A stretch of DNA of 22,642 nt from a virus. The notes under the pieces were generated by a model, which worked only from the letters and a program-made list of their open reading frames with translations, was not told the DNA's origin and ran no database searches. The stretch lies in IMG/VR virus record IMGVR_UViG_3300042560_000787, positions 1-22,642 of that record; one strand, written 5' to 3'. The position numbers and the translations under genes were made by a program. Each line of letters begins with the position of its first letter. Position 1 is the stretch's first letter. Of the stretch, positions 1-18,960 are shown in pieces.

Positions 1-6
1 TGACAT
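1..6 (-). CDS. Possible start of a further early gene (cut by window edge)
   Basis: An ATG at base 6 on the minus strand follows the stop of the 48-residue gene by two bases, continuing the tight run of small early genes. Only two codons (Met-Ser) are inside the window, so nothing can be said about the product. The upstream GGAG within the previous gene could act as a weak ribosome binding site. Confidence 0.25.
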
Positions 7-8
7 AG

Positions 9-155
9 CTATACACGCTCCACGCTAAGAACAACCTCTCGCTTAGGACAAGCAGAGAACTTGGTTACAGCTTGAATAGGGGTGTAACCCCGCTCATAGG
101 CGTAGTGAACGCGCTTATCGTCGTTGTAACGCCACGCAATACGAAACTTAAACAT
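9..155 (-). CDS. Small early protein, 48 aa, unknown function
   Basis: A 48-residue ORF begins MFKFRIAWRYNDDKR and ends LSVERV. A strong Shine-Dalgarno (GAGGGGG, about 7 bases before the ATG) decides the start. The product is basic and aromatic-rich, with no signal peptide or membrane segment. It lies 14 bases after the stop of the preceding 51-residue gene and is followed almost at once by another ATG, so it is part of the early operon. I do not recognise the family. Small early proteins at this place in T7-like phages often modulate host enzymes, but that is general knowledge and not evidence for this protein. Confidence 0.65.
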   Translation of the reverse strand: MFKFRIAWRYNDDKRVHYAYERGYTPIQAVTKFSACPKREVVLSVERV

Positions 156-169
156 TATGGTTCCCCCTC

Positions 170-325
170 TTAGTACTCAACCTTGATGGATTGCGGGACT
201 GATACCCGAATACAACTACCCTCACGCTCAAGTTCCGCCTGAAGAAGTTCTTCGATCCACTCGGCTAACTCAAAGGAATCGATGGGGTCGTAAGAAAGAA
301 CCTCTACATTGATCGTGTACTTCAT
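170..325 (-). CDS. Small early protein, 51 aa, unknown function
   Basis: A 51-residue acidic ORF begins MKYTINVEVLSYDP and ends SVPQSIKVEY. The start is supported by GGAGAG about 6 bases upstream. The pattern is a beta-strand (YTINVEVL), a helix (residues about 17-35, rich in Leu and Glu) and a second strand (CIRVSV), which suggests a compact alpha/beta fold. It follows a hairpin at 347-370 after the metallopeptidase gene. I do not recognise the family. Confidence 0.65.
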   Translation of the reverse strand: MKYTINVEVLSYDPIDSFELAEWIEELLQAELEREGSCIRVSVPQSIKVEY

Positions 326-342
326 GGTGACTCTCCATAGAG

Positions 343-370
343 AAAAGCACGGACAGTCTCCCGTCCGCGC
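343..370 (-). terminator. Hairpin with U-tract after the metallopeptidase gene
   Basis: On the minus strand GCGCGGAC pairs with GTCCGTGC (8 bp including one G-U wobble) around the loop GGGAGACT, followed by TTTTCTC. It sits between the stop of the peptidase gene (393) and the ATG of the 51-residue gene (325). It could be a weak intrinsic terminator, or an RNase III processing site of the kind found between T7 early genes. Confidence 0.5.
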
Positions 371-392
371 TGATGATAGTTTGAATTGTTGC

Positions 393-1310
393 TTACCTTA
401 TGTAGAACACTTCACTGAGGAATTGTTCTTCGTCATACCCAAGACGATCTAGGATATCCGCAGCAATGTCAGGGTATTGCTTGACCAATGACGCAAGATC
501 ACCGTACTGGCACTTGATGTAGTCATCGCTGTATAGATCATACGTCTTGCGCCAGTTGTAACCATAGTCTACGTCATCTTCCCCAGCTTTGCGGGAGACA
601 ACCAGCTTAGTTGTGTCAAGGTCACACAGCTCTTGGAACAGGCTGTCCAAGAACCACATATCAAGGCACTCATTAGGACCATGCGCCCCCTCGTAACCCA
701 CCGACAAGTTAGTGCACTCAGCAATCAAGTCAGTGTAGTTTGCGGTATCGGTGAAGATACCATTAGGGCTGGCGGTGAAGCCGGTCAGTTGTTCAGCAAG
801 TGAAGCAGCGAAGGCATCGCTACAGCATCGCACCCCTTGATGGGTGATGATGTCACCCGTGCCTTTGCGATCCAGTGCGATTGCTATATCGATACCCTGA
901 AGATACTCGGGGTTTTCCTTAGCGATAGCCCTAGACCCAATGCCCCCGACTTCTTCCCCACGATGGAAGATGTAAAGCCCTGGGATTCCAAAGGTAATCA
1001 TCTGGTGCATAAGCCAGACACCAGCTGTGTCGTCTGCACCAAGGCAGTTAGACTTACTACCAGGGGCTAGCGCAACAAGACCATCAACAGCAGTGATGAG
1101 TTGCTTGCCTTCCTCACGATGCACAGTGTCAGTGTGGCAAGACCACATGACATTTGAGGAGCCTATGCTGATGATGAGGTTTCCCTCCTCGTCTACATAG
1201 GGATCAAGCGGCATGAGGAAGCGATTGATAAACTTCTCCTCGGTGCGCGATGCGTGAGGACGGCGATAGCGCAGCATGTCGAGAAGCAAGGCATGGTCAG
1301 GAGTACGCAT
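393..1310 (-). CDS. M20/M28-like zinc metallopeptidase, phage-encoded
   Basis: This 305-residue protein has the full order of metal-ligand motifs of co-catalytic zinc peptidases (M20/M28/M42 clan). They are SCHTDTVH (H59, D61), LGADDTAG (bridging D93), RGEEVGG (general base E119, ligand E120), IALDRKG (D147) and EGAHGPNE (H210). In the families the HxD and the bridging Asp bind two zinc ions and the first Glu activates water for aminopeptidase, carboxypeptidase or deacylase chemistry. No signal peptide is seen, so it should act in the host cytoplasm. The ATG overlaps the end of the zinc-ribbon gene by 14 bases and has GGAGG six bases upstream inside that gene, so the two are translationally coupled. 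The C-terminal 70 residues (after about 235) are acidic and Tyr/Asp-rich and do not match the core. The substrate is unknown. The assignment to the clan is strong, to a family weak. Confidence 0.85.
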   Translation of the reverse strand: MRTPDHALLLDMLRYRRPHASRTEEKFINRFLMPLDPYVDEEGNLIISIGSSNVMWSCHTDTVHREEGKQLITAVDGLVALAPGSKSNCLGADDTAGVWLMHQMITFGIPGLYIFHRGEEVGGIGSRAIAKENPEYLQGIDIAIALDRKGTGDIITHQGVRCCSDAFAASLAEQLTGFTASPNGIFTDTANYTDLIAECTNLSVGYEGAHGPNECLDMWFLDSLFQELCDLDTTKLVVSRKAGEDDVDYGYNWRKTYDLYSDDYIKCQYGDLASLVKQYPDIAADILDRLGYDEEQFLSEVFYIR

Positions 1311-2640
1311 GATCGGCCTCCACAGTTACAACTTCCTCTTCACCGGCTTCCTCAGCAGCCTTCTCCGCTGCTTTCTCCTCAGCCTCATCCGTTGTTAGAT
1401 AGACACCATCGTCTTCGTCATAGACGAAATCATGCGAGCAAGACTCACAGACTGTGGTGCCAGAAGTGGTGGTACCCACAATCTCAGACTCGTACCAGTA
1501 GTACTCACCGCACTCATCGCAGAAGTACACTCGACCACGATCAACGCAGCTTTCGCAGACTACGTAACCATCGTGGGTGTGGACATGGCTAGTGCTGTCG
1601 CTGTACGCATCTCCGCAGCAATCGCAAGTGAACGCACCACTAGCGTAGCAGCTATGGCAAATCTCTTCTTCAGAGTCATAAAGCCAATAACCGTCACCCT
1701 CATCGAAGTGTTCACCACACCACGGGCAGCAGTGACCCTTATCAGCATAGCCGCCCGTGTTCTGGACCTGTAGATGACCAGACCCAAGGACAAGCCAGTC
1801 CTTACCGTTGCATCGTTCAATAGACGCTTCTTCGATCCAGTCAATATACGGGCAGACGTAATGACCACGATGCTCAATGGCTTGGAGATGTGCGCCTTCG
1901 AAGCCACCTTCATGATATCCCATACCTTCTAGGTGCTTGAGCAAACGCACGGCATCCCCGTAGATGCGCCCATAGATAGACTCGTCTTCCCAGATGAGTG
2001 CCCGTGCTGTTACATCGCCTTCTTCATCCACAAGAACAGCGAGGGAGAGATCGGAGTCGCCATAGATAGCCACAGGGTGGACAGGGCTATCGTAGCTGCG
2101 TGCCTCCTTAGACATGCAAGACGATGGGCCGTTGATGTAAGCGTGGATGATATCCTCGGATGACCGAAGGATCTTGAAGGAACTGGCGTTATCAAACTCA
2201 GCGCAGAAAGACGCAATGGTAGCGTCACTGATGAGATCACCATAGAATTTCTTCAAGTAGCGCCCAGGCGAGACAACAATTTGCCTATCCGCTGCGCCGT
2301 ATTCTTCATCCGGGGTATACGCGACCTTGTTCTTGTTGCCTTGTGCAATGTGAACAAAGTGATCCTTGTATTCACGCACAAATCGGCTGGCTGTAGTGTA
2401 GTTGCTAGGCTGAGTGAACAGATCAAGACTGGCCCAGGGCACAGGCTCATAGTTCCCATTGTCAAAGCGCCCTTGCTCACGCTCACGCCAGTCAATAATA
2501 GGCTTCTCCTTACGCTTTTGGATACGCGAGAAAGACGCAGCTTGCTTGTTGATGAAGCGCACAATAGCAGCAGCATCTTCCGAGACTTCAAAAGAGGCGA
2601 AGCGACAAGCCACTTCCCCATTGGTGACAACATCAAACAT
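1297..2640 (-). CDS. Early protein with three tandem zinc ribbons
   Basis: This 447-residue protein has six CxxC knuckles: C305/C308, C328/C331, C339/C342, C362/C365, C374/C377 and C398/C401. They fall naturally into three consecutive zinc ribbons, followed by an acidic, Glu/Ala-rich tail (about 404-447). The N-terminal 290 residues form a separate domain with a basic stretch near residues 39-55 and a conserved-looking GPSSCMS segment (171-177). I do not recognise the N-terminal domain. Zinc ribbons of this spacing usually bind nucleic acid or protein partners, so a role in host takeover is inference. The start has a strong GAGGAG 8 bases upstream. The 3' end overlaps the metallopeptidase gene by 14 bases, which points to coupled expression. 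Confidence 0.75.
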   Translation of the reverse strand: MFDVVTNGEVACRFASFEVSEDAAAIVRFINKQAASFSRIQKRKEKPIIDWREREQGRFDNGNYEPVPWASLDLFTQPSNYTTASRFVREYKDHFVHIAQGNKNKVAYTPDEEYGAADRQIVVSPGRYLKKFYGDLISDATIASFCAEFDNASSFKILRSSEDIIHAYINGPSSCMSKEARSYDSPVHPVAIYGDSDLSLAVLVDEEGDVTARALIWEDESIYGRIYGDAVRLLKHLEGMGYHEGGFEGAHLQAIEHRGHYVCPYIDWIEEASIERCNGKDWLVLGSGHLQVQNTGGYADKGHCCPWCGEHFDEGDGYWLYDSEEEICHSCYASGAFTCDCCGDAYSDSTSHVHTHDGYVVCESCVDRGRVYFCDECGEYYWYESEIVGTTTSGTTVCESCSHDFVYDEDDGVYLTTDEAEEKAAEKAAEEAGEEEVVTVEADHAYS

Positions 2641-2692
2641 GACACTTCTCCTCTAGTAAGCCTTACGCAAGCGCAAGGCAGTAGACAAAGAA

Positions 2693-2773
2693 CTAGCGCG
2701 TAAGCACTTGGACAAGCCAAAGGCTAGACGCGATGATTGTTATGTAGATTGAGAAGACCAAAGCCTTGCCCAT
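2693..2773 (-). CDS. Putative 26-aa single-span membrane peptide
   Basis: A micro-ORF of 26 residues (MGKALVFSIY...VQVLTR) is almost entirely one hydrophobic helix with a Lys near the N-terminus and a terminal Arg. Its ATG overlaps the stop of the preceding 30-residue ORF in a TGATG, the usual sign of translational coupling. The same frame can be extended upstream to a TTG at 2881 (62 residues). I prefer the short version because the strong ribosome binding site serves the other frame. The function is unknown. Small membrane peptides are common in T7-like early regions. Confidence 0.45.
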   Translation of the reverse strand: MGKALVFSIYITIIASSLWLVQVLTR

Positions 2774-2865
2774 CAGCGAAACCTGGTAATGGTGACGACA
2801 GGACGGCGGCGAAGAAGCCACAAAGCATGGCGGAGTTCTTCTGTTAGGATACGGATTGCGAGCAT
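2773..2865 (-). CDS. Putative 30-aa basic early peptide
   Basis: A 30-residue ORF (MLAIRILTEELRHALWLL, then an Arg-rich end) is preceded by GAGGAGTGACCACA, nearly identical to the ribosome binding sites of the neighbouring early genes at 3081 and 3364. That makes translation likely despite the size. The N-terminal 18 residues would form an amphipathic helix, followed by RRRPVVTITRFR. Its stop overlaps the start of the 26-residue membrane peptide. I do not recognise the family. Confidence 0.5.
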   Translation of the reverse strand: MLAIRILTEELRHALWLLRRRPVVTITRFR

Positions 2866-2877
2866 TGTGGTCACTCC

Positions 2878-3081
2878 TCAAAGGGAAGGATCATCAAACA
2901 AGACACGCCCTGGAACAGTTTCTTCAATGAGAAGAACAAGTTCTTCCAATTGAGACACAGCAAGAAAGGTGTCTTCATTCGGGTGGGGATCATCCGCCAT
3001 GTCTTCGCAATCAAGCGACAAGACACAATGCAGGGTGCGGATTTGTTCGATGGTAAGCATGAGTGCAATTTTCTCAGACAT
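2878..3081 (-). CDS. Small acidic early protein, 67 aa
   Basis: A 67-residue acidic protein begins MSEKIALMLTIEQIRTLH and is predicted mostly helical, with two leucine-rich helices (about 8-24 and 40-56). The start is supported by GAGGAGTACCTACC directly before the ATG. It is followed within 12 bases by the 30-residue micro-ORF and preceded by a hairpin (3117-3140). Negatively charged small proteins in the first part of a T7-like early region can be anti-restriction DNA mimics (such as T7 Ocr), but this is much shorter and I see no specific similarity. The function is unknown. Confidence 0.65.
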   Translation of the reverse strand: MSEKIALMLTIEQIRTLHCVLSLDCEDMADDPHPNEDTFLAVSQLEELVLLIEETVPGRVLFDDPSL

Positions 3082-3116
3082 GGTAGGTACTCCTCTGGTT
3101 TAACATAGGTTTACTT

Positions 3117-3140
3117 AAGGGTAGCCTCTCGACTACCCTT
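3117..3140 (-). promoter_or_regulatory. Early intergenic hairpin (putative RNase III site)
   Basis: AAGGGTAG and CTACCCTT form a perfect 8-bp stem around an 8-base loop between the 71-residue and 67-residue early genes. There is no U-tract on the minus strand, so a processing site or mRNA-stabilising end is more likely than a terminator. The bases just downstream (AAGTAAACCTATG) closely match those after the hairpin at 3401-3436. Confidence 0.5.
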
Positions 3141-3148
3141 TGGAAAAC

Positions 3149-3364
3149 CTACACAAAGAAACGCTTTGCATGTTCGATAGCAGTTTCATGCCTACGTTCA
3201 ATGCTGGTGCCCCACCAATCAGGATCGGTGGTGAAACCATCACGTTCCAAGGCAGACTGCGCTTTGGCCATTTCTTTAGGGCAGATGAATTGAAGCAGAA
3301 GGGTTTGACCAGTCACATCACCGTCATCAGGCCAGACTTTGAGAGTGTATAAACGATCAAACAT
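3149..3364 (-). CDS. Small early protein, 71 aa, unknown function
   Basis: A 71-residue protein begins MFDRLYTLKVWPDDGD. A ferredoxin-like alternation of strand, helix and strand is plausible: TLKVW, then a helix about residues 30-42, and a WWGTSIERRHETA segment near the end. No membrane segment is seen. The start is decided by GAGGAGTAACCACC before the ATG. It lies between two hairpins. I do not recognise the family. Confidence 0.65.
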   Translation of the reverse strand: MFDRLYTLKVWPDDGDVTGQTLLLQFICPKEMAKAQSALERDGFTTDPDWWGTSIERRHETAIEHAKRFFV

Positions 3365-3400
3365 GGTGGTTACTCCTCGCGTTGAACTAAAGGTTTACTC

Positions 3401-3436
3401 TAGGGGACACAATACCCTTTGGTATGGCATCCCCTA
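3401..3436 (-). promoter_or_regulatory. Early intergenic hairpin with symmetric internal loop
   Basis: The outer stem TAGGGGA/TCCCCTA (7 bp) and inner stem ATACC/GGTAT (5 bp) are separated by a 4x4 internal loop (CACA opposite GGCA) and closed by CTTT. A stem with a central internal bulge is typical of T7 early RNase III sites. It lies between the 173-residue gene (stop at 3447) and the 71-residue gene (start at 3364). It is followed on the minus strand by GAGTAAACCTTTAG, which resembles the sequence after the 3117-3140 hairpin. Confidence 0.55.
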
Positions 3437-3446
3437 TGGTAAGCAT

Positions 3447-3968
3447 TTAGGCAGCCTTAGCCTTTTTGCTGGCGACTGCATCGGCAATCTTGTTGTTAGT
3501 CATGAGGAAGGCAATCAGGTCCTCATTCCTGATTTCCTGTCCTTCCTGGGCAATATCCTGTGCCATAGCAGCCTTGGTAAGAACCTTGAGGATATCGATG
3601 GGCGAGAGGTTCAAATTCTCCGCCTTGGCGTCCCACCACATAGTCTTAGTGGCGTACTCCATATCCCAGTCGGCGTCTGTCCGATCCTTTTTAAGACCAA
3701 ACACCTTATCCTTGCCGTTCACACTGAAGGCATCCTTGGCACCCTTGGCATCCTTCTCGGACAACGGAGCCGCGTTGAACAACCAAGCCTTAAGGCTGGA
3801 ACGATTAGCACCAGCGCCCACCGCGTCGAACAAACGCGAGAGCAACGAGGCATCGCCATGATCCTTGGCATGAGCGAGAGCGAGGAGGCCAATTTCCTGC
3901 ACATTGGCGCGGAAAGTGGTGGCGGACTTCTTCAAACCAGCGATCTTATTGATGATGTTAGCGGACAT
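3447..3968 (-). CDS. First early protein after the leader, 173 aa, phage hypothetical
   Basis: A 173-residue Ala/Lys-rich protein begins MSANIINKIAGLKKSATTF and ends ASKKAKAA. It is predicted mostly helical, with a central KxWLFNAAPLS segment and a WDMEYATKTMWWDAK segment. The middle part (ALAHAKDHGDASLLSRLFDAV) resembles a hypothetical-protein family I have seen in several unrelated phages, so the gene is probably real and mobile among phages. I cannot name a function. The start has AAGGAG about 7 bases upstream. It is the first convincing minus-strand gene after the large non-coding region, the position of T7 gene 0.3. Confidence 0.75.
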   Translation of the reverse strand: MSANIINKIAGLKKSATTFRANVQEIGLLALAHAKDHGDASLLSRLFDAVGAGANRSSLKAWLFNAAPLSEKDAKGAKDAFSVNGKDKVFGLKKDRTDADWDMEYATKTMWWDAKAENLNLSPIDILKVLTKAAMAQDIAQEGQEIRNEDLIAFLMTNNKIADAVASKKAKAA

Positions 3969-4025
3969 GATGTTTCTCCTTGGCGCTTAATCGATGCGCC
4001 GATTGTGTAGACCATCCACACATGA

Positions 4026-4055
4026 AAGCGCCTTAAGGTGTCCCCTAAGGCGCTT
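4026..4055 (-). promoter_or_regulatory. Perfect 10-bp hairpin in the early leader
   Basis: AAGCGCCTTA and TAAGGCGCTT are perfectly complementary around the 10-base loop AGGTGTCCCC, about 58 bases before the ATG of the 173-residue gene. Only three Ts follow on the minus strand, so a processing site (like the T7 R0.3 site) fits better than a terminator. The arms contain the CCTTAAGG/CCTAAGG core also seen in the 5647-5705 repeat cluster. Confidence 0.5.
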
Positions 4056-4542
4056 GATATCTATGGATGTTGGATTCCGTTAAGTGATACACGGTTTTCT
4101 TGTACCCTAGCTATTTTCCTCTATCCCCTTGGTTCACCCTGCATCCCCCGTATTTCGTGGCACATGCTCTCGCATCACCAGTCACCAAAGGATTTTTCGC
4201 TGCTTCTATGTATGCCGTGTATGCCGTTACCAGCCTGAAGCCTCGCGCAAGCTACCATCATGTGATGTTATGCCGTCAGCGTTTCACCCTGATTAATGGA
4301 CATAGGCTTGCGCCACTAAGACCACCATTTGAGGACTACTTTACCAACCACAGGTACACCCAAGGATATTCGAGTATATTTGCTAGGTCGTTTTCACACT
4401 GTTACCAGTGCAAGGGTTTACGTACCCTTCCAGCGTCATGTGATTGACTGGGTGCGGCGGGATTCCCCTCTACCGCTTGACCTACCCTAATCCCCTAGCC
4501 TCTACCCTTCCCCTTCGGTACTAAGGCGCTTTGCTAGGCTTT

Positions 4543-4583
4543 CCTGCCCATTTGCTGGGCGGGTAGTAGTCCGACACTCGGAC
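4543..4583. repeat. Two adjacent hairpins in the leader
   Basis: CCTGCCCA/TGGGCGGG (8 bp with one wobble, loop TTTGC) spans 4543-4563. GTCCGA/TCGGAC (6 bp, loop CAC) follows directly at 4569-4583. Neither has a U-tract on either strand. They are structural elements of unknown role in the leader or terminal region. Confidence 0.45.
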
Positions 4584-4705
4584 CATCAATCACATGCTAG
4601 ATTGTACCGCTACACCTACAGGCTTCCGGCATCACCGGGGCGAACCTTAGGGGCGTCATATTGTGTTGCTCTCGCTCTCTATTCACCTATCCCTTCCTTT
4701 GAGGC

Positions 4706-4729
4706 TGGGGGACGGACCTCCCGCCCCCA
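4706..4729. repeat. Strong GC hairpin
   Basis: TGGGGG-A-CGG pairs with CCG-CCCCCA around the loop ACCTC, giving nine base pairs with one bulged A. No U-run follows on either strand, so it is not a standard terminator. It is the most stable short hairpin in the leader region. Confidence 0.45.
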
Positions 4730-4875
4730 AGGCTGTATATGGATGAACTGCCATCAATCAGCAATCCAAAGGTAAGGATTACGGTATGGGAAGGGTAACG
4801 AAAAAAATGCAGCCTATGACTTCAGGGTAGGTTTTAAGGGGCATTTCCCTACCCCAAGGTGTGGTTAGGTCAATC

Positions 4876-5193
4876 ATGCTGATATTCATTTGGTTGTATA
4901 AGTCAAAAATGACCATACAACCCAACACCTTGGAAACCATAGGTAACCTATTGATTTCTCAGGGTATATTAGATGATTTTCTAGCTTATGAAAAAAGATG
5001 TGATGATGATTATGATAGTGTTTTCAATGGTTTAGGTGGGTTTGTGGCTTGTGCCATATGGTGGCATGACCGTGCCACTATATGGATGCTAGTGGTTCCC
5101 CTCGGGATGCCCTGGGATAGCCTCGGGATGCCTTCAGGATTGCTTAGGGGCTATGACCAAAAAAGATGGCAGAACACAAACAGAGGGAAGTGA
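4876..5193 (+). CDS. Lone plus-strand ORF, about 105 aa, doubtful
   Basis: This is the only protein-like ORF on the plus strand. It can start at a GTG (4861), at ATG 4876 (weak AGG 6 bases upstream) or at ATG 4909 (no ribosome binding site). The N-terminal half (LETIGNLLISQGILDDFLAYEKRC split by a helix-like pattern, then DDDYDSVF and a GGFVACAIWW hydrophobic patch) looks protein-like. The C-terminal third is built from a repeated LGMP unit encoded by the 21-base tandem repeat. It overlaps the AT-rich island where early minus-strand promoters would be expected. It may be a moron gene or a chance ORF in promoter DNA. I favour chance slightly. Confidence 0.3.
   Translation: MLIFIWLYKSKMTIQPNTLETIGNLLISQGILDDFLAYEKRCDDDYDSVFNGLGGFVACAIWWHDRATIWMLVVPLGMPWDSLGMPSGLLRGYDQKRWQNTNRGK
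4879..4906 (-). promoter_or_regulatory. Candidate sigma70 early promoter
   Basis: On the minus strand TTGACT (5 of 6 to the -35 consensus) lies 16 bases before TATCAG (4 of 6 to the -10 consensus), in the AT-rich island upstream of the early genes. A second, weaker pair (TTTTCA, 17 bases, TAATAT) lies at 4966-4994. Clustered host promoters at the left end are known in T7. Here the match is modest and the assignment leans on position. Confidence 0.35.
4966..4994 (-). promoter_or_regulatory. Weaker candidate early promoter
   Basis: TTTTCA and TAATAT are separated by 17 bases on the minus strand, each matching the sigma70 hexamer at four of six positions. It lies about 90 bases upstream of the 4879-4906 candidate, within the same AT-rich island. 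It could be one of a promoter series, or just AT-rich sequence. Confidence 0.25.
5100..5141. repeat. Two-copy 21-base tandem repeat
   Basis: CCTCGGGATGCC occurs at 5100-5111 and again at 5121-5132, the starts 21 bases apart, with partly similar tails (CTGGGATAG and TTCAGGATT). It keeps frame within the doubtful plus-strand ORF, giving two LGMP units. Confidence 0.6.
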
Positions 5194-5200
5194 TAGTGAC

Positions 5201-5312
5201 CGTCCCCCGGCAATCCCCAGGTTCCCCCCTCGGTCTACCTCATGTTTCCCCAAGGGATATGATATTCAATCATGGGCAAGCTATTGATATCCTTGGGTTT
5301 TCTTGGGGGACG
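5201..5312. repeat. Nested long-range inverted repeat
   Basis: The outer arms CGTCCCCC (5201-5208) and GGGGGACG (5305-5312) enclose inner arms CCCAAGG...ATAT...CAAT (5249-5270) and ATTGATATCCTTGGG (5283-5297). The left inner arm is interrupted by a G and by a GATATT insertion. The whole could extrude as a cruciform or fold as a long RNA stem. Its position in the probable terminal region suggests a role in processing concatemers, but that is inference. Confidence 0.45.
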
Positions 5313-5428
5313 TGACAGATGATGTGACAAATCCAGGGGATCGTTGGGGATAAAGCTAGTGATCTAGTAGGCTAGTCGAAAGGTGGGCTAAGGGGGAAAC
5401 TGCTCTCCGCCCTCTGCGCTATACCTCT

Positions 5429-5554
5429 TCAGATTTTTCCTACAAAATATTCAGGGTATGACCAGTAGAAGTATGAACTCAAGGACCCCGTCAGACACGC
5501 ATGGTATCCCCTAAGGACCCCTATGGTTTCCCATGCCATAACTGACCGAGCCAT
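5429..5554 (-). CDS. Putative 41-aa protein in the terminal region
   Basis: A short minus-strand ORF begins MARSVMAWETIGVLRGYHA and ends YPEYFVGKI. It is preceded by AGGAGAGG five bases before the ATG, the best ribosome binding site in this gene-poor region. The product is aromatic-rich (five Tyr, two Phe, two Trp) with no clear membrane helix. It lies just beyond the repeat cluster at 5647-5705, so it could fall within the terminal redundancy, as do very small genes in some phages. The function is unknown and reality uncertain. Confidence 0.4.
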   Translation of the reverse strand: MARSVMAWETIGVLRGYHACLTGSLSSYFYWSYPEYFVGKI

Positions 5555-5646
5555 GTATCCCTCTCCTGAGGAACCCATATAGATACCCTACGTTCCCATA
5601 CGGTAACCACACAGTTAACCTTAATATACATACTACACATTTAAAA

Positions 5647-5705
5647 ACCTAAGGTACCTTAGGTGTCTTTAAGTATCTCTAAGACACCTAAGGTTACCTT
5701 AAGGT
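5647..5705. repeat. Palindromic short-repeat cluster, SRR-like genome-end marker
   Basis: Four units alternate in orientation: ACCTAAGGT (5647), ACCTTAGGT (5656), ACCTAAGGT (5686) and ACCTTAAGGT (5696). Units 1 and 2 form a perfect 18-base palindrome (5647-5664). Bases 5656-5669 and 5681-5694 form a perfect 14-bp inverted repeat around an 11-base spacer. Directly repeated CCTAAAG heptamers lie just inside each T7 terminal repeat and are thought to act in concatemer processing and packaging. The core and location here, right after the last late gene, make the same role likely. The inverted rather than direct arrangement differs from T7. Confidence 0.65.
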
Positions 5706-5733
5706 TTTAGTTTAGTTGATTACGTTGGAGATG

Positions 5734-6033
5734 TCAACAAGCATTGTGTCTTTCCAAAACGTCAGCTACCCAGTCATCGATCCATTGGTTAACATAGAGG
5801 ACACCCTGAGGGTAATCATATATGATCGTTTCGGCTGTCTCTAACTCAGTGGCTGGAGTAGACCTGGCTATAAGCACCCGTATCTCTTCAAGAGCCTCTC
5901 GGCTCTTCTTAGCAGTGTTAGAGTCTCTCCAACGGAAGACATGCTTCTTCATGAGTTCATACACCTGCCTGTTCTCTTCGTAGTCAGGCCAAGGGGTTTT
6001 AAACTCTTCAATAAATTCAGCTACAGTACCCAT
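5734..6033 (-). CDS. Hypothetical 99-aa protein after the large terminase
   Basis: A 99-residue acidic, helical protein begins MGTVAEFIEEFKTPWPDYEEN and ends DWVADVLERHNAC. It starts one base after the terminase stop, so translation is coupled. It holds the position of T7 gp19.5, although T7 19.5 is about half this length and I see no sequence similarity. There are no membrane segments. It is the last late gene before the genome-end repeats. The function is unknown. Confidence 0.7.
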   Translation of the reverse strand: MGTVAEFIEEFKTPWPDYEENRQVYELMKKHVFRWRDSNTAKKSREALEEIRVLIARSTPATELETAETIIYDYPQGVLYVNQWIDDWVADVLERHNAC

Positions 6034-6034
6034 A

Positions 6035-7702
6035 TCACCTCAATGTCCACTTACGGTTTCCCTTAGGTTTCATAGAGAACACATTGTCCATGTATCTACG
6101 TAGTTCCTTCTCCATAGCTTCATCTCTCTGTGTCTTGAGACCAAGTTCTTCATCCTTAGCCATCACCTCAGAGAAGTAAGCTACAGCCATAGCAACCGCA
6201 TCTAACCTATCGTCAAACCTAAGAGCACCTCTCTCATAACACACCCTGGTCAGCTGGTAGATGAGGCTCTTAAAGACCCTTATGGAACTCTCGTATCCCT
6301 GTATGGACTCCCAATCCTTAATGAGAACGTCCTTATCAACAATCAACCTATGCCGACCCATGACCGGCTCTAGGGTGTCAATAATACGTCGCTCCTTCTG
6401 GATGGAGTGCTTGACCTCTTCAACCTTACACTTGTGGTGTCTGAACAGCACAGGCTGGAACAGCTGGGTAAACATACCGTCACCGAAGTTAGCCTCGATG
6501 ATCACATGGTTTACCTTCTCCTCTAGGGCAATCTTAGCAAGCTTTTCCAGAGTATCAGGGTCGTAGCCACCTGCAAGACCACCAGCCCTGCGCAGATACA
6601 CAAATCCGTTAAGAAACTTGACCACCGCATAACCAGTCTCATCCTTACCACGACCACTTGGGTCAACCGCAAGGACACTTCCAGTGTACTCAGCGAATTC
6701 CTTAGAGTGTCCAGCGTGTAGGTAGAACTTATCCCCAGGCATGCTGAGGTTGTTTAGGTCCTTACATTCCCTATCGGGATCAGGCAGCCAATTAACGGAC
6801 ATAGGAGCCTGGTCAACTGCTGTGTACATCACAACCAGGTCATGCACCTTGAGCGGATAACGCTCCAGATCGCTCAACTGGGTGTTCAGCATAAACTGGA
6901 GACTGAACCCAGCCTTACCGTACTCCCCCTGGCGCTCCATAAGGTCCATGATGGTGAACCGCTGAGGATCGCACGACTGACCGGCTTTACCTTCCTCCAT
7001 AAGCTTCCTCACATACGGAGCAAGTCTATCCCCATACGACTCAGCTTCCTTCTCAGTGGGCACAATGGCAGGCCAGATGCGCACTACGAAGTTAGTCGGT
7101 AGCTTATTGTAGATGGAGTCCTCGGTCTGAGGTGTACCAAGGTAGATGGTCTTAGCTGAAGGGAGCGGCTTAAGGATCGCTGAGAACTCCCGAGTTTTCT
7201 CAAGGAGACTCTCGCGCATATCAGCAGTCGCAGAGTTGTTCATCACCTCAACATCATCGGAGATGATGATGTCAGCACGAGTCCCGGTGATCTGCGAGGT
7301 GATCCCAACGCTCTTCATGCTGGGCGATTGGTCAGGGAGAGCAGGTCCTACGTCAAATTCGATCTTACTACACCGCTGATCGGCTCTAGGACGGAGACCA
7401 GCCAGGATAGGCATCTCCATAATAAGCCGCATGGTGAACGTAGTGAAGTTATCTGCACGGTTCTTAGACGCTGAGACAACCAAGATCTTCTTCTGTGGGT
7501 CCCTAAGCAGCTCCCAGATGCAATACGCAGAGGTTACGAACGACTTACCAACGCCTCGGAAGGCTTCGATGCCAATCTTATTTGGCCCATGCTGTAGAAA
7601 CTTGGCAATATCGTACTGAAGTGGGGTAGGATCTGGAAGATTGATGTGCTTCCAGACGAGGAATAGGAAGACTCGGAAGTCCTTCTTTACATCGTCAATC
7701 AT
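6035..7702 (-). CDS. terL: Terminase large subunit (DNA packaging ATPase/nuclease)
   Basis: This 555-residue protein is the motor that packages concatemeric DNA into proheads and cuts it at the genome ends. The ATPase domain has Walker A AFRGVGKS (47-54), Walker B IIISDDVE (145-152) and coupling motif YLGTPQ (187-192). The RNase H-like nuclease has acidic residues at AVDPSGRGKDE (D347), IIEANFG (E403) and FDDRLDA (D497/D498/D501). The length is close to T7 gp19 (586). The ATG at 7702 is preceded only by a weak GAG but by a striking structured spacer (7733-7799). The small terminase is two genes upstream, split from it by the endolysin-like gene, as in T7 where gp18.5 intervenes. Confidence 0.97.
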   Translation of the reverse strand: MIDDVKKDFRVFLFLVWKHINLPDPTPLQYDIAKFLQHGPNKIGIEAFRGVGKSFVTSAYCIWELLRDPQKKILVVSASKNRADNFTTFTMRLIMEMPILAGLRPRADQRCSKIEFDVGPALPDQSPSMKSVGITSQITGTRADIIISDDVEVMNNSATADMRESLLEKTREFSAILKPLPSAKTIYLGTPQTEDSIYNKLPTNFVVRIWPAIVPTEKEAESYGDRLAPYVRKLMEEGKAGQSCDPQRFTIMDLMERQGEYGKAGFSLQFMLNTQLSDLERYPLKVHDLVVMYTAVDQAPMSVNWLPDPDRECKDLNNLSMPGDKFYLHAGHSKEFAEYTGSVLAVDPSGRGKDETGYAVVKFLNGFVYLRRAGGLAGGYDPDTLEKLAKIALEEKVNHVIIEANFGDGMFTQLFQPVLFRHHKCKVEEVKHSIQKERRIIDTLEPVMGRHRLIVDKDVLIKDWESIQGYESSIRVFKSLIYQLTRVCYERGALRFDDRLDAVAMAVAYFSEVMAKDEELGLKTQRDEAMEKELRRYMDNVFSMKPKGNRKWTLR

Positions 7703-18507: not shown

Positions 18508-18960
18508 TTATTCTTTCCTGATGACGAATTCGATGTACTCTTCACCGTTGATCCCCATAGGAACCTTGCGAAGAGCGATAGCACCGCACCAACGCAACCA
18601 AGCGTGATGCAGGGTGTTTCGTGCGTCTGTGTAGTTATACGCTAGTTGGTAATCACCTATGAGATCCTGCACTGCCGCTCTGGAGTTCTTTAGGAACTTC
18701 ACCTGATGACCAATTAGATCGTCAGATGCGAGCATCCAGATAAGACCAACACCGTCCATATCGGTAGGGCAGATGCCATATACACCGACCAGCCGACCCT
18801 CGGGGGTCATCGCAAGACACCTATCGGAGTTAATTAAGCCTAACTCCAGGGCGTCCATAGGCGAGAAGCCTAATGATCTGACCTCAAGCTCATCTGCTTT
18901 TCGCAGCCTAGTAGCGAGATCGACCATGTCCACAAGGGTGGCCGGTCGGGTATATTTCAT
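18508..18960 (-). CDS. gp13-like virion-assembly protein with GNAT-like fold
   Basis: This 150-residue protein begins MKYTRPATLVDMVDLATRLR, with GLINSDRCLAMTPEGRLVGVYGI (40-62), VGLIWMLASDD (71-81) and NTLHHAWLRWCGAI (115-128). These are features of the T7 gp13-like family (the DUF2833 type), which resembles GNAT acetyltransferases but has no proven catalytic activity in phage assembly. T7 gp13 (138 residues) is needed for proper core formation. The stop is followed three bases later by the gp14-like ATG. Confidence 0.85.
   Translation of the reverse strand: MKYTRPATLVDMVDLATRLRKADELEVRSLGFSPMDALELGLINSDRCLAMTPEGRLVGVYGICPTDMDGVGLIWMLASDDLIGHQVKFLKNSRAAVQDLIGDYQLAYNYTDARNTLHHAWLRWCGAIALRKVPMGINGEEYIEFVIRKE

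Follow-up and report, generated by a model that had tools for sequence, protein, structure and literature searches.

The gene at positions 393–1310 of the window, by which we mean the whole 22,642-nucleotide stretch analysed here (a 22.6-kb virus fragment), apparently encodes a real and intact peptidase and belongs to a conserved two-gene pair, the other member of which lies directly upstream. The peptidase matches solved enzymes in fold and has an invariant active site, the two genes are linked in searches from either side, and the two proteins diverge in parallel. In our preferred interpretation, which we hold at roughly even confidence, the product is a cytoplasmic di-metal exopeptidase or amide hydrolase, made early, that forms half of a two-protein module with an SCM/LIM-like partner. 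The peptidase itself is a known phage gene, whereas the pair appears to be an undescribed extension worth pursuing. The features of the window that bear on this interpretation, all on the minus strand, are as follows:

346..371, minus strand: terminator-like hairpin of 11 pairs with a T-rich tail, just past the stop of the peptidase gene (by consensus match only)
393..1310, minus strand: clan-MH metallopeptidase of 305 aa, with a lid-less PepT-like catalytic domain (residues ~1–238) and a helical C-terminal tail
1297..2640, minus strand: partner of 447 aa, its stop overlapping the peptidase start, with a core bearing an invariant SCM motif and a Cys-rich LIM-like tail
2878..3968, minus strand: small ORFs upstream in the same direction (2878–3081, 3149–3364 and 3447–3968), presumed early genes
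5647..5664, minus strand: terminator-like hairpin past the terminase and one small ORF, where late transcription presumably ends (by consensus match only)

The peptidase ORF runs from ATG to stop over 305 aa with no internal stops. The original prediction placed the gene in the correct interval, leaving its strand unsaid, and rightly regarded it as complete and not decayed. Each of the seven residues that it named as catalytic or metal-binding (H59, D61, D93, E119, E120, D147 and H210) is found exactly at the number claimed, and together they follow the arrangement HxD–D–EE–D–H that marks the co-catalytic metallopeptidases of MEROPS clan MH (M20/M28/M42). None of the seven varies in an alignment of 52 relatives or, among 105 distinct pairs, in any sequence reaching those columns; the metal ligands, R148, D188, C199, N201 and E214 are likewise invariant wherever the columns are reached (104/105 distinct pairs). 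The PHROG_4191 ‘peptidase’ profile covers residues 6–261 of 305 with an E-value of 9.2e-73. The scores against Pfam Peptidase_M28 (PF04389; 17.2 bits) and M42 (PF05343; 16.7 bits) fall under the gathering thresholds of 21.3 and 23.2, respectively, and PF04389 is weakly matched by 38 of the 52 relatives (best E 1.1e-7). A phmmer search of PDB sequences with the lone peptidase sequence gave chance matches only, so that an alignment profile was needed to reach PepT; the profile of the family did so with an E-value of 4.7e-8 and the motifs HxDTV, LGADD, EE and GYexxH. Megablast of the whole window returned only short terminase matches, and a close relative of the window is therefore absent from the collection searched.

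The AlphaFold2 model of the peptidase, built from the 52-sequence alignment, has a pLDDT of 92.2 and a pTM of 0.81. PepT-type tripeptidases rank first in Foldseek (3gb0, E 5.9e-12), and the model superposes on 3rza (Z 25.6) and 3gb0 (Z 25.1) with an rmsd of 2.1–2.2 Å over 225 residues; other M20 and M42 enzymes follow, with Z-scores of 20–25 to M20/M42 structures. The best matches are to an enzymatic fold, and as far as the superposition shows neither outcome named beforehand as a refutation, ligands set apart or a non-enzymatic fold, arose; the proposed identity as a complete M20/M28-like (clan MH) metallopeptidase is borne out. What had been overlooked is a missing domain. The model consists of one domain and C-terminal helices, with only ~90 residues separating E120 from H210, and its 225 aligned residues are spread along the full 373-aa PepT chains, an extra part of which, the lid/dimerisation domain, has no counterpart in the window peptidase. 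The chain is shorter than those of M20 enzymes because the lid domain is missing, which gives the peptidase an M28-like layout. The alignment with PepT is limited to the catalytic domain; the last ~60 residues form helices and show partial conservation. We infer the active-site geometry from the superposition of the model, and the peptidase is probably enzymatically active.

The peptidase lies behind the late genes. Read along the minus strand, tail proteins, internal virion proteins, a tail fibre, a lysozyme-like gene and the terminase (6035–7702) are followed by one small ORF, the hairpin at 5664–5647, a gap, small genes, the partner, the peptidase and the hairpin at 371–346. Since late genes, a hairpin and a gap precede it and its homologue in Rhizobium phage Pasto lies near the left end, we read the peptidase as an early gene, in agreement with the original prediction; this is a sound inference about position and not a measured expression class. 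In Pasto, described as T7-like (PMC8407765), the homologous pair occupies positions 1969–4557 from the left end, past an ArdA-like gene, and a tyrosine integrase and a helix-turn-helix gene are found close to the pair in this podophage (L016:3571-6510). The stretch of the window at ~3970–5640, between the terminase and the early genes, is long and holds no convincing minus-strand genes; it is the place where the terminal repeat and early promoters would be expected. Scanning positions 1–7000 for promoters revealed no excess of sigma-70-like sites. T7 was correctly said to have no such enzyme: searches of T7 and LUZ19 with the peptidase and partner profiles found neither gene in either phage. 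Elsewhere in the window, the minus-strand gene at 18508–18960 encodes an internal virion protein (phrog_308) that sits where T7 has gp13 and that might, by eye, show a GNAT-like pattern.

The survey of gene neighbourhoods that had been proposed revealed what the original prediction did not notice, namely, the conserved partner directly upstream. Of 132 loci fetched by similarity to the peptidase (the window and duplicates included), 118 have a same-strand homologue of the partner upstream of it, in nearly every case as the immediate neighbour. After reduction to distinct pairs, 105 remain, and the median gap between the two genes is 0. Among the 14 exceptions, L015, L088 and L124 start at the edge of the available sequence or only just inside it. 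The reverse search, for which a closer partner alignment was used, the first being too divergent for searching, yielded 80 loci, 78 of them non-truncated; the peptidase is next in 72 of the 78, lies 1.3 kb on in one more and is not found nearby in five. No substitute hydrolase was evident when the partner-only loci were inspected. Conversely, a peptidase without its partner is seen in Thermus phage P23-45, in some contigs, both viral and bacterial, and in a 735-kb phage with five copies. The link is thus strong but not obligatory. In the latter phage (LR756501.1, L134), the five paralogues lie at 436241-441680, 494935-495657, 667141-667812 and 708102-708800, and there are just two weak, non-adjacent partner-like matches; here the family has expanded without the usual pairing.

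The pair is present in small podophages, in phages of 80–125 kb, in two plasmids and in bacterial contigs, the latter presumably prophages. Two elements carry two diverged pairs, with identities of 43–45% between the peptidases and 22–37% between the partners. These are Methylobacterium indicum plasmid pVL1_2 (L021:2010-9602) and a Mesorhizobium element (L035, with the same pairs in L104), in each of which the two strongly diverged pairs are in tandem; within L021 or L035 the two pairs differ from one another as much as from the pairs of other elements. Distance matrices of the peptidase and the partner correlate with r 0.74 (permutation maximum 0.14), as expected if the pair is inherited together as a unit. 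Adjacency itself contributes to this correlation, and by itself is enough to give correlated trees. No third gene is widely shared among the neighbourhoods: the most frequent are integrase (17 loci) and an RIIA-like gene (14), with all others in fewer. The integrase genes lie downstream of the pair at a distance of a few genes and suggest temperate relatives. In roughly twelve loci (L018:4216-6339 and similar spots in other larger phages) the RIIA-like gene comes directly past the peptidase, and in others genes for a MoxR-like ATPase and VWA-like proteins are repeatedly seen slightly farther along, after a few intervening genes.

The model of the partner is of good quality, with a pLDDT of 89 and a pTM of 0.64. 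It has no family in Pfam or PADLOC, matches only families of unknown function in PHROGs, and in the viral structure library matches uncharacterised phage proteins. Residues S174-C175-M176, Y193, R213, Y227 and P264-Y265-x-D267 are invariant or nearly so. The region of residues ~150–246 resembles GNAT-fold enzymes in all VIA-align rows, including aminoacyl-tRNA-dependent transferases, at a level (Z ≤ 7.1, Foldseek E ≥ 0.02) that the tool itself describes as frequent where a model has no clear match. Profile–profile comparison with GNAT families by hhalign gave probabilities of ≤ 1%, equal to reversed controls; a transferase-like reading of the partner is therefore without sequence support. The tail contains many Cys-x2-Cys pairs and is weakly LIM-like (profile against LMO4, E 0.0017; Pfam LIM matched in 5 of 66 family members); the Cys pairs are present in the window partner and partly lost among relatives.

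We propose that the peptidase, a PepT-like domain minus the lid/dimerisation domain, would work in the cytoplasm as a di-metal exopeptidase or amide hydrolase and would be made early alongside the SCM/LIM-like partner encoded directly upstream. The partner, as a zinc-ribbon adaptor possibly with an acyl- or aminoacyl-transferase-like core, would bind, present, make or modify the substrate of the peptidase. The peptidase could strip an N-terminal residue or an acyl group off the same target, whether a host protein, a peptide or a small molecule, and the outcome might be to help host take-over or counter-defence. We tentatively suggest, as the less probable outcome, that the pair represents a widespread, so far uncharacterised two-protein early module shared by phages and plasmids; in it, a lid-less PepT-like hydrolase would edit a host protein or metabolite together with a new family of SCM/LIM-like transferases or adaptors.

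The roles that the original prediction put forward for the peptidase (release of amino acids, processing of a regulator and removal of signals) are speculative. Three other explanations deserve consideration, and the evidence does not separate them. The pair could inactivate a host defence protein or remove a defence-triggering signal of acyl or peptide nature, and such a role would account for its place in the first-expressed region and on plasmids. The early position, the adjoining ArdA-like antirestriction gene in Pasto, the occurrence of the pair in both phages and plasmids and the retention of two diverged pairs in one element all fit this explanation. Antirestriction genes, however, show no fixed association with the pair across loci, and no PADLOC model was matched, these models describing defence systems and not inhibitors; we regard a counter-defence role as somewhat unlikely. 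Amino-acid salvage, in which the peptidase would trim short peptides from host turnover for phage translation and the partner would be a dispensable regulator or an unrelated co-traveller, agrees with the nearest folds being tripeptidases and general aminopeptidases, as well as with the lone peptidase of P23-45 and the multiple copies in the 735-kb phage. That the linkage to the partner runs both ways, and does so in phages, in plasmids and in bacterial contigs, is nevertheless hard to fit with a stand-alone nutrient enzyme, and a burst of amino acids has no evident use to plasmids, so that we judge salvage unlikely.

The remaining explanation is reversible modification of a host protein, in which an acyl or aminoacyl group would be attached by the partner, taken to be a divergent GNAT-like transferase, and the peptidase would either remove the group or clear the acceptor. 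It draws on the top structural rows for the partner core, which are all GNAT-fold and in some cases aminoacyl-tRNA-dependent, on the occurrence of deacylases among M20/M28-type enzymes and on the phage GNAT Rac, which leads to cleavage of the host RNA polymerase alpha (PMC7552054). By contrast, the tool also gives Z-scores of about 7 and Foldseek E ≥ 0.02 to unrelated models, the GNAT profile comparison stays at the level of reversed controls, and an acetyl-CoA loop is not recognisable by eye in the partner. We consider this explanation improbable.

The distribution of the gene gives no support to regarding the peptidase as unusual for a phage. The peptidase is matched in 374 GenBank phage records (tblastn E ≤ 1e-5), mostly KP34-like Klebsiella, Pectobacterium and Vibrio podophages, and further relatives are found in 542 IMG/VR stretches, 30 bacterial genome contig stretches and nine plasmid records. 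In many KP34-, PhiM1- and VP93-like phages the gene already carries a peptidase annotation, and the 2018 description of Pectobacterium phage CB5 (PMC6115819, IPR007484) lists six conserved early genes, of which this alone was given a putative function. In the open-access literature we found only annotation for phage M20/M28/M42 enzymes and no description of the conserved peptidase–partner pair, which may have been reported elsewhere. By itself, then, the peptidase is an ordinary, previously annotated phage gene, and it is the conserved pair that makes a testable unit out of what was one putative peptidase in a set of early genes of unknown function. For the hundreds of phage records with the peptidase, many from Klebsiella phages, the linkage points to the protein to co-express and co-purify with it. 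If the preferred two-protein module edits host molecules or serves counter-defence, a conserved early block now without a function would gain one.

Comparison with known systems places the window peptidase closest, in fold, to the PepT-like tripeptidases (M20B; 3gb0 and 3rza), with which it shares the catalytic domain (Z 25) and the GADD, EE and GYexxH motifs. It differs from PepT in having no lid/dimerisation domain, in its added helical C-terminal tail and in an invariant Arg148 right after the metal-ligand Asp147. A lone catalytic domain with no inserted lid is shared with M28 family aminopeptidases, but the window peptidase scores under the PF04389 gathering threshold. Rac (LUZ19 gp28) may share a fold with the partner core, a weak likeness; as a homologue of the partner it was rejected, since LUZ19 has neither gene of the pair by profile search and the partner has no sequence-profile similarity to GNAT families. 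The PHROG_4191 peptidases of Phimunavirus, KP34-like phages and Maculvirus (PhiM1 gp10, VP93 gp7 and Pasto gp05), by contrast, belong to the same family as the window peptidase (E 9.2e-73), with identities of 45% for Pasto and 34% for PhiM1, and these podophage enzymes share both the early position ahead of the replication genes and the same upstream partner.
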